A stretch of DNA of 64,000 nt from Ruminococcus sp. (lineage in GTDB: Bacteria; Bacillota; Clostridia; Oscillospirales; Ruminococcaceae), in NCBI GenBank assembly GCA_017484095.1, contig JAFUTU010000042.1:1-64000 (forward strand), given 5' to 3'. The position numbers and the translations under genes were made by a program. Position 1 is the stretch's first letter, and each line of letters opens with the position of its first letter. This document shows positions 34 through 29,430 of this stretch, piece by piece. A model generated the notes under the pieces. The model was not told where the DNA came from. It saw only the letters and a list, made by a program, of their open reading frames with translations, and ran no database searches.

Positions 34-54
34 GTGATCCAAAATAGAACCGTC

Positions 55-178
55 GTTTCTTCCATCCGGACTGTACCGTCGGTTTCGGAATCTCACCGAA
101 TCAGCGCTCATAAAAGCGGTCGAGGACTTAATGCTTTCGCAGATCACCTCCGGTGTGGAATTTCACCACCCCTGAAAC
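55..178 (-). promoter_or_regulatory. FMN riboswitch (RFN element)
   Basis: Read on the minus strand, this stretch has the conserved core pieces of the RFN element in order: GGTGAAATTCC, ACCGGAGGTGAT, AGTCCTCGACC, GATTCGGTGAGATTCCG, and the terminal ACCGACGGTACAGTCCGGATG followed by GAAGAAAC. The closing P1 helix is GTTTC with GAAAC. FMN riboswitches control riboflavin synthesis (ribDEAH) or uptake (ribU) genes. The controlled gene is outside the window to the left, so transporter and biosynthesis remain equally possible. Confidence 0.93.
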
Positions 179-205
179 TTTGTTGTTTATTGTTTGTATT
201 ATTGA

Positions 206-26638: not shown

Positions 26639-27949
26639 TTATTCCGCAGGTACCTCCTGCTGAGGCACGTCAGGCACCACAGGCTCGACCGGTACATCGG
26701 GCTGCGGCTCAACAGGCACATCAGGCTCTGTCGGCTCAACAGGTATCTCTGTTCCGGTATCGGGAAGGAGAGTATCCGAAGTCGAGAGAGTGGTCTCGGT
26801 CGGCGATGTTGTGAGCTCTGTCAGTGAAGATTCCGTGGTGGAAACAGACGAAGCTGACGTAGTAGTCGTTGTGGTGGAGGTGGTGGTCGTTGTGGTCGTG
26901 GTAACTATAGGCTCTACATATTCGCCAAGCTGTATAACTCCCCATAAGCCGTTCGATCTTACCCAAGCCCTGCCGTTGTGGACAGGTCTTGCCTGCTCGA
27001 ACTCGCCGGGGGTCACGGAACGCTCACCTTCAATGCTGTAGTAGCCGTAGAACGAATCTACCAGCACAGGTACAAAGTCAGCCGAGAAAAGATACGGATG
27101 TACCTTTTCAAGATCGTCTATCACTTCACCGCAGTAGGCGTTAAGGTCTCCTCCGCAAATAAAGTCAACTATCGTCTTTCCGTCAGAGCCCACATAGCCC
27201 CATTTGCCTTCACTGTTGCGGAAGGCTATAGCAGTCTTTCCTGCGCCCTTATATGCAGGCGCATAATAGTCAGCGTATTTAAGCTCTATTATCAGTTCAT
27301 CATTCTTAGCCAGTCCGTAAAGAGTGCTCTCCTTCGGGGTTATCTCGTAGCTGTCTCCGCCTGCCTCGCTGATATCTGCCTCTCCGACAACAACAGCCTT
27401 CTTGCCTGTATACTTGCTGCCGTAGTCCTCATTCTTGTGCTTTACATATATCTGGCTCTCAGCATCGTTCCAGAAATACTCGGGAGCGTTATCTGTATGA
27501 TCGCTCACATAGTCAACTATCTGGTTCGAGCTGTCCAGCGTGCAGTATTCATAGTAATCATTTTTCTCATCGACAACATTGAAAAGAACTATCTCTCCGC
27601 ACCAGCAAGCGTAATAGTCGTCATAGTTTGGCTGAACGATTATATTTCCGCCGTAATCTATAAGACCGTACTTTCCGCCTCTTCTGATAACCGAATAATT
27701 CTCACACATAGCGCTTTTCTCATTATCGGGATCGACCTGGCTCGCATCAAAGGTTATAATGTTGTCAGCATCTATTGATGGCTCCAGAAGCCACTTATAT
27801 GCCTGTTCCTTCTCAGTGGTGTTAGCATCGTAGGAATAGCCAGACATTGTGGTGTCTTCTTCCTCTTTTTTTGCAAAGGGATTTGCACATCCTGCCAGAA
27901 ATGCACACGCGCACACAGCCGAGATCGCAGAACAAAGTATCTTGTTCAT
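26639..27949 (-). CDS. WG-repeat lipoprotein with Thr-rich linker
   Basis: 436 residues, exported and lipid-anchored: MNKILCSAISAVCACAFLAGC ends in a lipobox with Cys21. The body carries WG/KWG-type beta repeats (RRGGKYGLIDYGGNIIV, EGKWGYVGSDGKTIV, SNGLWGVI). A threonine run of about 15 residues and a Ser/Thr-rich segment follow, then a tail of Pro-Glu-Val repeats (EPTEPDVPVEPQPDVPVEPV). Such low-complexity tails often span the wall. AGGAGG precedes the ATG at 27949; an upstream in-frame extension would start within 10 bases of the promoter's -10 box and has no signal peptide at its front. The role of WG repeats is not well defined. Confidence 0.85.
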   Translation of the reverse strand: MNKILCSAISAVCACAFLAGCANPFAKKEEEDTTMSGYSYDANTTEKEQAYKWLLEPSIDADNIITFDASQVDPDNEKSAMCENYSVIRRGGKYGLIDYGGNIIVQPNYDDYYACWCGEIVLFNVVDEKNDYYEYCTLDSSNQIVDYVSDHTDNAPEYFWNDAESQIYVKHKNEDYGSKYTGKKAVVVGEADISEAGGDSYEITPKESTLYGLAKNDELIIELKYADYYAPAYKGAGKTAIAFRNSEGKWGYVGSDGKTIVDFICGGDLNAYCGEVIDDLEKVHPYLFSADFVPVLVDSFYGYYSIEGERSVTPGEFEQARPVHNGRAWVRSNGLWGVIQLGEYVEPIVTTTTTTTTSTTTTTTSASSVSTTESSLTELTTSPTETTLSTSDTLLPDTGTEIPVEPTEPDVPVEPQPDVPVEPVVPDVPQQEVPAE

Positions 27950-28029
27950 AGGGTTCCTCCTGTCAAATTTTGTCTCTTTTCTTTTTTCTTTCTTTTTTAA
28001 CAGGCAAGCTCGCCTGTCCATACGTAGTT

Positions 28030-28058
28030 ATTATATACTATTCGCGCATTTCTGTCAA
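28030..28058 (-). promoter_or_regulatory. Promoter of the WG-repeat lipoprotein gene
   Basis: Perfect consensus TTGACA-17-TATAAT on the minus strand, about 80 bases before the start codon. Confidence 0.93.
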
Positions 28059-28147
28059 TAGCACAAACGCCAAAAGAGCGTTCAACTTTAGCAAAAAATC
28101 GTATATTATGCCTCTAAAAAACAGACAATTCCGAAACGATCAGAAAA

Positions 28148-28176
28148 AAACGCTCCGCTTTGAACGCAGAACGCTT
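28148..28176 (-). terminator. Upstream copy of a duplicated terminator-like hairpin
   Basis: AAGCGTTCTGC pairs with GCGGAGCGTTT (with wobble pairs) and runs into T residues on the minus strand. It shares the 14-base arm GAACGCAGAACGCT (plus-strand reading) with the hairpin at 28304-28332. No annotated gene lies between the two. Confidence 0.6.
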
Positions 28177-28303
28177 CGCTCTATTAATAAAGTTAGAAAT
28201 ATATACCCGAAGGGGGGTGGGGGCGACCGGAAAGCCCCCAAGACAAGGTAACGAGCTATCTCTAGTTTAAATCACATTTGAATGTTCATTTTTTCAACAA
28301 AAA
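28177..28303. other. Intergenic GC-rich structured island, no gene seen
   Basis: In an otherwise AT-rich gap of about 316 bases, 28205-28239 forms two adjacent hairpins: ACCC-GAAGGG-GGGT and GGGGGC-GACCGGAAA-GCCCCC. Similar terminator hairpins flank the stretch on both sides. A weak TTGAAC-16-TATTAA lies at its left edge on the plus strand. I find no open reading frame of note and no riboswitch family I recognise. Confidence 0.4.
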
Positions 28304-28332
28304 AAGCGCTCTGTTTTGAACGCAGAACGCTT
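28304..28332 (-). terminator. Terminator after the AlkZ-related-like gene
   Basis: A ten-base stem (AAGCGTTCTG with CAGAGCGCTT, one G-T) followed by TTTTTGTTG on the minus strand, a few bases after the stop of the 28338 gene. Near duplicate of 28148-28176. Confidence 0.85.
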
Positions 28333-28337
28333 ATAGA

Positions 28338-29009
28338 TCATTTTAACATACGTTTTATGTCTCTCTCATCGGCATGGGGAAGTATCCGCCGCAGATGATC
28401 GAATACAAGCTCGTAGGACTCCTCGGGTTCATGCCTGTAAACTCTATCGGTAAAATCATCACCGATGAACCGCTCTGGAGTGGAATACTCCGCAACGCCC
28501 CAGCCATACTCTCTGCCGAATCTGTCCTGCATATATACAAAGTTGCTTATCACCACATAGCACTGCTCCTGAAGCCTGACAGCAGAGCTGTCAAAGCCCT
28601 TGTTTCCGCCCTTGCGGTAATTGCCGAGCTTTTTTAGCTGTTTTGAGATAACAGGCTCGTTCTCGGCTATGAGGTCGTAAAGGGTCTTGTCAGCTCTTTT
28701 GGCAAGGCCGTCATCATAAAGAGCGTCAAAGTCATAACCGTTTCGCCTGTAATTTGCAAGCTCGGGAAACCATTCACGGCTGACATAAACCGCCTTTCTT
28801 TCAAAGAACTTGCCGTATGCACAGCCTGTGCTCCTGATAACGGGGCCCTTCCATTCCCATGCGCCCTCCTCTGCCGAGAACCAGAAGCGCGGGTCAATAT
28901 GCTCCTCTATCGAAAAGCCCTCTATACTGTTTCTGAAATACGGCAGGAAGCCATACTCTTCAACAGCTTTTTCAAGGTCAGCCTGCGAGCTTATATAAAG
29001 GTCTTTCAT
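28338..29009 (-). CDS. Conserved hypothetical, possibly AlkZ-related
   Basis: 223 residues starting MKDLYISSQADLEKAVEEYGF. Aromatic-rich motifs such as FWFSAEEGAWEWKGPVIR and AYGKFFERKAVYVSREWFPE resemble the AlkZ-related family of small proteins distantly linked to winged-helix DNA glycosylases; I hold this as a likely match, not a certain one. The C-terminal half is charged and helical, with no signal peptide. The start at 29009 has GGAG upstream and fits the TTTACT-17-TATATT promoter at 29029-29057; longer in-frame starts lie before that promoter. It is flanked by terminators on both sides, so it is monocistronic. Confidence 0.8.
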   Translation of the reverse strand: MKDLYISSQADLEKAVEEYGFLPYFRNSIEGFSIEEHIDPRFWFSAEEGAWEWKGPVIRSTGCAYGKFFERKAVYVSREWFPELANYRRNGYDFDALYDDGLAKRADKTLYDLIAENEPVISKQLKKLGNYRKGGNKGFDSSAVRLQEQCYVVISNFVYMQDRFGREYGWGVAEYSTPERFIGDDFTDRVYRHEPEESYELVFDHLRRILPHADERDIKRMLK

Positions 29010-29028
29010 AAGTATCATCTCCGATAAT

Positions 29029-29057
29029 AATATAGCACAAAAGTGCAGAAAAGTAAA
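29029..29057 (-). promoter_or_regulatory. Promoter of the AlkZ-related-like gene
   Basis: TTTACT-17-TATATT on the minus strand, about 20 bases upstream of the start codon at 29009. Confidence 0.7.
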
Positions 29058-29066
29058 GACGCAAAA

Positions 29067-29097
29067 GCAGAGAACAGGAGATCTTCCTGCCCTCTGC
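29067..29097 (-). terminator. Terminator after the VWA remnant
   Basis: A 13-base stem (GCAGAGGGCAGGA with TCCTGTTCTCTGC, two G-T pairs) followed by TTTTGCG on the minus strand. It directly follows the stop of the truncated VWA gene. Confidence 0.85.
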
Positions 29098-29103
29098 CGA
29101 TAA

Positions 29104-29430
29104 TTACCTGTTGTTGAAGTCCTCGTCTGTCTGCTCACGCCATGCCATATTTTCAGAGCCCAGACCCCTGCTGTACACCTCGGAAACCGCAGCACATACC
29201 GCCTCATACATCACGGATGTGCCGTTGCGGTCAGCATTGTAATTTACTGCTCTGCTCTCGTCGATACCAAAGGAGCGTGCTGTCTCTATAGATTCGATGT
29301 TAGCGCCCAGGAAGATGAATTCCCAGCCGTATTTTTCCTGCTGGCGTGATATCATCGACCTTACCTTTGATGCGCTGTATTTCCTGCCGGAGTTCTCGAG
29401 TCCGTCAGTAGTGATAACAAAGAGCGTATG
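29104..29430 (-). pseudogene. Truncated VWA-domain protein remnant
   Basis: The open frame preserves LFVITTDGLENSGRKYSASK, SRQQEKYGWEFIFLGANI and the C-terminal tail typical of the last part of a bacterial von Willebrand factor A protein. Upstream a TAA at 29431-29433 closes the frame, and the first part of the domain with the MIDAS DxSxS motif is missing. The 3' terminator is intact. It looks like the 3' end of a gene whose front was lost, with uraA now adjacent. Confidence 0.75.

Follow-up and report, generated by a model that had tools for sequence, protein, structure and literature searches.

What lies between two near-identical terminators that stand in a single intergenic gap, and how did the terminator come to be present twice? 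The question is raised by a locus in the window, the whole stretch of 64,000 nt of Ruminococcus sp. contig JAFUTU010000042.1 that was analysed. Two hairpins of 33 nt (28144-28176 and 28300-28332, start-to-start 156) are 91% identical there, and both combine a stable hairpin with a U-run, as intrinsic terminators do. A terminator scan of the window places the T-runs of both on the minus strand. The twin terminators described in the original prediction are thereby confirmed, and the GC-rich middle that it placed between them is found at 28207-28242; the interpretation given to this arrangement is partly supported. The locus consists of the following parts, listed in the direction of the minus strand:

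28338-29207, minus strand: upstream gene, AlkZ-related protein (Pfam PF24741, E 5e-75)
28300-28332, minus strand: T1, the first (5') terminator copy, behind the gene at 28338-29207 (-13.2 kcal/mol, z -3.8)
28177-28299, minus strand: putatively inserted element between T1 and T2, 123 bp, absent from the relative G019
28144-28176, minus strand: T2, the second (3') terminator copy (-16.5 kcal/mol, z -2.9)
26639-28021, minus strand: downstream gene with WG repeat (PF14903)

The sole match of the window to Rfam 15 at the gathering threshold is an FMN riboswitch outside the element (window 50-183, minus strand; RF00050, 100 bits). Permissive Rfam 15 scans covering 27950-28500 as well as three viral loci give nothing at threshold. 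With zero Rfam 15 matches at threshold, a known riboswitch or other known RNA family was rejected for the middle element, in agreement with the earlier statement that no known riboswitch explains it.

The element is dispersed. A genome-wide search with the middle stretch, as had been proposed for the element at 28205-28239, shows that it is not unique, so that one half of the outcome named as refuting (an element both unique and untranscribed) falls away: the source genome holds 22 matches including the element itself, mostly around 28199-28248. An exact 17-mer of the element occurs 15 times in the source genome (0 for the reversed control). Of the 28 other genomes tested within the genus, 12 contain it; the 32 genomes tested from other genera do not, and the reversed pattern gives 0 hits. 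By covariance model, 14 of the 29 genomes in the genus hold between 3 and 48 copies each, and the remaining 15 yield none. The 17-mer is further contained in at least 119 genome-contig stretches, mostly of uncultured Clostridia and Ruminococcus, a number that includes chance coding matches in unrelated bacteria; two further lists hold at least 120 each. Carriers outside the genus are other uncultured gut and rumen Clostridia. Phages are carriers as well, with the 17-mer in 37 viral-contig stretches and with 12 different human-faecal phage records in a BLAST search with two copies. A class-wide scan of 391 genomes gave convincing copies in the source genome only, two other matches looking like chance, with tails that do not fit, and a plasmid search gave zero copies. 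Searches of open-access full texts, supplements apart (e.g. the 3161 candidates of PMC8040213), found no description of the element.

As judged from its sequence, the core of the element can fold into an H-type pseudoknot instead of two separate hairpins. The original prediction had named two stems, ACCC/GGGT and GGGGGC/GCCCCC. A plain nested fold of the middle does yield both, but with a z of only -0.9 (41 of 200 shuffles are equally good), and ACCC/GGGT is not kept in many copies outside the genus, whereas the pairing of loop with tail is. The parts of the pseudoknot in the window copy are:

28207-28242, minus strand: pseudoknot core, the single core in the window (covariance model R1, 41.8 bits, E 1.3e-7)
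28234-28240, minus strand: stem 1, 5' strand TGGGGGC, partner 28218-28224; stem 1 covaries among copies
28227-28230, minus strand: stem 2, 5' strand CCGG, in the loop, partner 28207-28210
28218-28224, minus strand: stem 1, 3' strand GCCCCCA, partner 28234-28240; stem 1 covaries among copies
28211-28217, minus strand: loop 3, a C-run plus T, read from the sequence
28207-28210, minus strand: stem 2, 3' strand TCGG, partner 28227-28230; compensatory changes from CCG/CGG to GCG/CGC elsewhere

The aligned copies give the core consensus (stem)GGGGGC-TTTCCGGTC-GCCCCC(stem')-A/C run-TTCGG. Across copies, both stems covary. The sequence of stem 1 is variable and its pairing is kept. For stem 2, a loop that begins with G goes with a tail that ends in C: the tail matches in 16 of 17 copies with a GCGG loop and in the sole copy with a GCGA loop, and one copy with a CGCA loop has the tail UGCG. 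Loop variants are under-sampled, since most loci were collected for holding a CCGG loop. Stem 2 was evaluated in 194 copies with a stem 1 of at least 8 bp, unselected for stem 2 (tails were readable in 266 of 316 candidates, duplicates removed). Its outer pair is C-G in 160 of these and G-C in 15, with the remaining 19 unpaired; all three main pairs are formed in 174 (shuffles: mean 146, maximum 155, a statistic that ignores kinship among copies). The closing pair of stem 2 is G-U in 120 cases versus A-U in 51. A second, ungapped set comprises 36 sequences (32 distinct) out of 38 references, two being omitted without a principled reason, and is preselected for a matching stem 2 and one spacing; here, 98.6% of cells are paired and covariation is 0.415 versus 0.149 in shuffles. 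Two of the five measures in this set are not clearly above shuffles, namely pairs with two-sided change (6 versus 4.9; 145 of 500 shuffles as high) and further pair types (13 versus 10.8; 41 of 500 as high). The two interleaved stems and their compensatory changes are those of an H-type pseudoknot, with the two inner pairs of stem 2 nearly invariant. The small structured RNA that the original prediction had considered is thus supported with regard to its fold, by the covariation of the stems.

Loop 3 follows stem 1 in composition. The C-run equals the G-run minus 1 in 184 of the 194 copies (shuffled maximum 97); the window copy, with six C in loop 3 versus five G in stem 1, breaks this rule. 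Compared position by position over distinct combinations, a G in stem 1 goes with a C in loop 3 in 243 of 246 cells, and for A the partner is A or T in 63 of 64. Contigs that by themselves hold different stems, each with its matching loop, also occur. Longer stems 1 do not go with longer loops 3 overall (109 distinct pairs from copies chosen for stem 2, r -0.35), whereas in CC-anchored stems the two lengths do rise together. In the geometry of an H-type pseudoknot, the joining loop lies alongside stem 1, in parallel orientation to the 5' strand of that stem. Because of this geometry, the G-C tracking may reflect base triples, and the link between stem 1 and joining loop would be the sequence trace of such possible triples in a pseudoknot. 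An alternative switch state with the C-run paired to the G-run of stem 1 was considered and may also occur, since G and C runs read alike both ways.

A stand-alone small RNA gene that uses T2 as its own terminator would agree with the window, where T2 is a terminator 3' of the pseudoknot in sense orientation. Such a gene is nevertheless highly improbable: a scan with the sigma-70 consensus only finds no promoter-like site from T1 to the core, the copies are dispersed in both orientations, and in many viral copies the next gene begins no more than about 35 nt further on. The downstream gene at 26639-28021 has a perfect sigma-70-type promoter match at 28058-28030 on the minus strand.

How the terminator came to be present twice is addressed by related genomes. 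At the window locus, G019 has one terminator and lacks the element, with flanks that are 84-88% identical. Two loci of G019, in turn, are filled between twins, and the source genome has there a single terminator that is reached by both flanks (77-92% identical). G019 is apparently RUG11219 (an uncultured Ruminococcus sp.), since at one site its sequence is identical to that of locus L036. Filled and empty sites thus pair at three loci, and the twin terminators look like the footprint of an insertion. The mobile repeat suggested at the outset is supported by these observations: it is dispersed, polymorphic between related species and accompanied by a duplicated terminator at all three loci. The two copies of the terminator can be very similar, as at L445 in G019, where 31 of 31 aligned bases are identical. 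The gene pair of the L017 locus is also present in G022 and G026, where it is accompanied by one terminator, a different one, and the element is absent.

Twin terminators accompany a part of the copies. Among 82 copies with full flanks from seven genomes, flanking direct repeats score at least 18 in 21 (0.14 expected from mismatched flanks), and in 18, from six of the seven genomes, each of the two repeats forms a hairpin with at least 9 pairs. The remaining 64 copies have no recognisable twin hairpins, including 9 of 9 in G017. Loci L445 and L021 are outside the 82 or below threshold and are known from separate comparisons. The interior of 14 twin loci measures 90-160 bp (median 135), and the 3' terminator copy begins 53-78 nt after the loop, a narrow range. 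The terminator seems to be supplied by the target and not by the element, since its sequence differs from one twin locus to the next. The element itself does not appear to bring a terminator along. By eye, the 5' interior ends are alike at L445, L513, L517 and L495 (about TTGCxGCAAA), as are the 3' interior ends at L461, L495, L513 and L517 (about ATCGACAGxC).

The twins might instead have arisen by ordinary slippage or unequal recombination, the element being inserted later or moved together with one copy. Loci L514 and L518 of G004 are in keeping with this, being tandem terminator-element-terminator-element-terminator arrays of closely similar units, and twins look homogenised within genomes. 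At L010, for instance, twins are more alike within a genome than between species, with unlike interiors, a pattern that fits repeated insertion and also gene conversion. At L021, the pseudoknot has opposite orientations in the two species; taken together, L010 and L021 could be explained by repeated insertion at the same position, by inversion or by gene conversion. We nevertheless regard slippage or recombination as improbable in view of the narrow twin-to-core distances and of the three filled sites, whose empty counterparts have a single terminator and are found in each of the two species compared. Also against it is a strict search of 959 kb for twin hairpin repeats, which found 15, 3 of them flagged with a core. 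The other 12 include core copies and other GC-rich repeats, and the scan serves as a rough control because its strictness misses the window's own pair.

In phages, the element is found at gene ends. In 26 of 81 viral copies it begins at -4 to +5 nt relative to a sense stop codon, compared with 0 of 81 on the antisense side, and 15 of 18 upstream proteins (tested out of 41) have matches to families of head, packaging or tail proteins, one match being weak; both counts rest on simple ORF rules. They are what would be expected if the pseudoknot were mainly an mRNA 3'-end element that blocks 3' exonucleases or ribosome run-on for differential expression of phage operons, with the chromosomal copies as by-products. 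Such a role is unlikely to be the main one. Among capsid orthologues, the element is located between the stop and the next start in 3 of 75, the query and two known copies (of the best 80 of 103 loci, 76 were used, four at contig ends being omitted, and one more was too short), and it is therefore not a conserved operon part. Chromosomal copies have no sense bias: both neighbours share the orientation of the copy in 11 cases and are both opposed to it in 24, counted by simple ORF rules and without the copies located in long ORFs (31 of 91 chromosomal, 39 of 79 viral). The window copy, moreover, sits behind a terminator.

The nine nearest capsid relatives without the element have an overlapping stop and start (TGATG or TAATG), and in the three capsid copies the next start is about 30-33 nt past the core. 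Given these overlaps and the 3 of 75 orthologues, the element looks like an insertion between two genes in phages too. That the stretch past the core is a copy of the junction is only weakly suggested, by a mean duplication score of z 2.8 over 36 junctions and by 7 of 39 junctions scoring at least 11 versus 2.9 expected. At L548, the capsid orthologue lacks the core, and the gap after its stop codon contains a strong hairpin of a different kind. The viral contig IMGVR_UViG_3300031867_000329 (L182 / L170) contains many cores with varied stems together with another repeat (CTCCCCTGAAAGGGGAGATG...CAGAGAGGTTT).

We consider it probable that the locus harbours a small (about 90-160 bp) non-autonomous mobile element that inserts at the ends of transcription units and duplicates its target. 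Chromosomal insertion would often occur at an intrinsic terminator, the whole of which, about 30-40 bp of target, would be duplicated to give the twins, and phage insertion would occur at the stop/start junction between genes. The duplication would arise at insertion, in the simplest integration model by staggered cuts at the base of the terminator hairpin and subsequent gap filling. Twin terminators would also provide a route to precise loss of the element and to the tandem arrays of G004. Copying of the whole terminator would explain how the element spreads without damage to neighbouring transcription. Chromosomal copies are present in both orientations without strand bias and may lie behind a terminator, as in the window. 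For this reason, we infer that a role in movement accounts better for the selection on the fold than a function in each adjacent mRNA would. The folded strand might be recognised by a mobilising enzyme and might be RNA instead of single-stranded DNA; the G-U closing pair and the UUCG tail lean towards RNA.

Carried further, a mobile element of this kind could be a bacterial counterpart of SINEs that moves via its pseudoknot RNA with the help of a trans-acting enzyme, which would cut at the base of the terminator hairpin, the terminator being rebuilt on both sides. This extension is doubtful. If true, it would mean that host transcription is left intact. The same core is carried at gene junctions by phages of the same hosts. 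How small structured bacterial repeats move is often obscure. The present family provides a strongly covarying fold, target duplications that are nearly identical, and sites that are filled in one of two related species and empty in the other, and because these are available, the enzyme, the intermediate and the target rule are open to test.

Candidate enzymes and mechanisms were searched for. Neither the Y1 transposase (PF01797) nor the IS110-family transposase (PF01548) has a match in the source genome or G019; PF01797 is present in the other carriers G004, G008, G009, G010, G013, G021 and G022. The zero matches of PF01548 in the two genomes led to the rejection of an IS110/IS1111-borne element. 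Copies acting as IS ends around a transposase were likewise rejected, as the 7 proteins between paired copies comprise 4 of host families (e.g. ThiC) and 3 without Pfam family. Strand-biased transposition of single-stranded DNA was rejected on GC skew, which is positive around 61 of 129 chromosomal copies and not around the other 68 (p 0.75), with p 0.71 for the 21 copies of the source genome. Terminal inverted repeats are absent from the 14 interiors, with a mean score of 5.2 versus 5.2 for mismatched ends. Membership among classical MITEs was rejected on this ground; the element does share target-site duplication with them, although the duplication is unusually long and variable in length.

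RAYT transposases are associated with the REP and BIME elements. These elements are short dispersed palindromes near gene ends (PMC3733652); the present element resembles them in being short, dispersed and near gene ends, but has a pseudoknot in place of their plain hairpin. REP tags are not above chance at the copies (GTAG beside 13 of 99 and CGTC beside 7 of 99, about 17 expected each), and REP/RAYT membership was rejected on the GTAG/CGTC tag and on the Y1 transposase in the source genome and G019.

The nearest parallel found, likened by description, is YPAL/RU-2 of Yersinia, an intergenic element of 168 bp with internal inverted repeats and variable duplications of 3-26 bp (PMC2229807). 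Its targets span or adjoin a dyad symmetry, and filled and empty sites are found between species (PMC2229807). Common to both are the small size, the intergenic location and inverted repeats that are internal and not terminal, and the present element similarly shows duplications of variable length at dyad-symmetric targets with filled and empty sites. The duplications here, in contrast, extend over about 23-50 bp and usually include the whole terminator, compared with 3-26 bp in YPAL/RU-2 (PMC2229807). YPAL/RU-2 belongs to different bacteria and its description in PMC2229807 mentions no pseudoknot, whereas the present element is additionally found at phage stop codons.

STAXI RNAs are repeated small pseudoknots with UUCG that are often located near genes for DNA-handling proteins (PMC2864571). 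Their copies are tandem and listed for Enterobacteriales (PMC2864571), whereas the element is dispersed in Clostridia, and the Rfam searches of the window, of 27950-28500 and of three viral loci gave no STAXI match. The pneumococcal BOX, RUP and SPRITE repeats are small, interspersed and structured, SPRITE being terminator-like, and enrichment near the 3' ends of convergent genes is reported for pneumococcal repeats (PMC3049150). Here, in contrast, the terminator belongs to the target and not to the repeat, and the available text on the pneumococcal repeats is without the word pseudoknot (PMC3049150).

The window has a single core, located between the AlkZ-related and the WG-repeat gene, and a type III antitoxin RNA was rejected on this basis. 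Such antitoxins are tandem pseudoknots beside a ToxN-like gene.

Several copies are accompanied by further repeats. In the source genome, a second repeat of ~90 bp (TTAGGTGCGACCACTA...GGCGAGCACCG) follows the core at L009, L013, L015, L020, L023 and L026, and at two of these, L009 and L013, a partial second core comes next. In other lineages, a GC-rich hairpin with a variable stem is located directly 5' of the core (L030, L033, L048, L049, L056, L147, L148, L158 and L175), for example TTTCGC..TGCGG..GCGA or GGGGCTTTGCCCC..GCCCC, as if the element were composite. Inverted tail-to-tail pairs of cores ~100 bp apart occur at L029, L035, L044 and L101 (SIG372) and at L039 and L065 (S12M_St_54). They recall the paired REPs contained in BIMEs.
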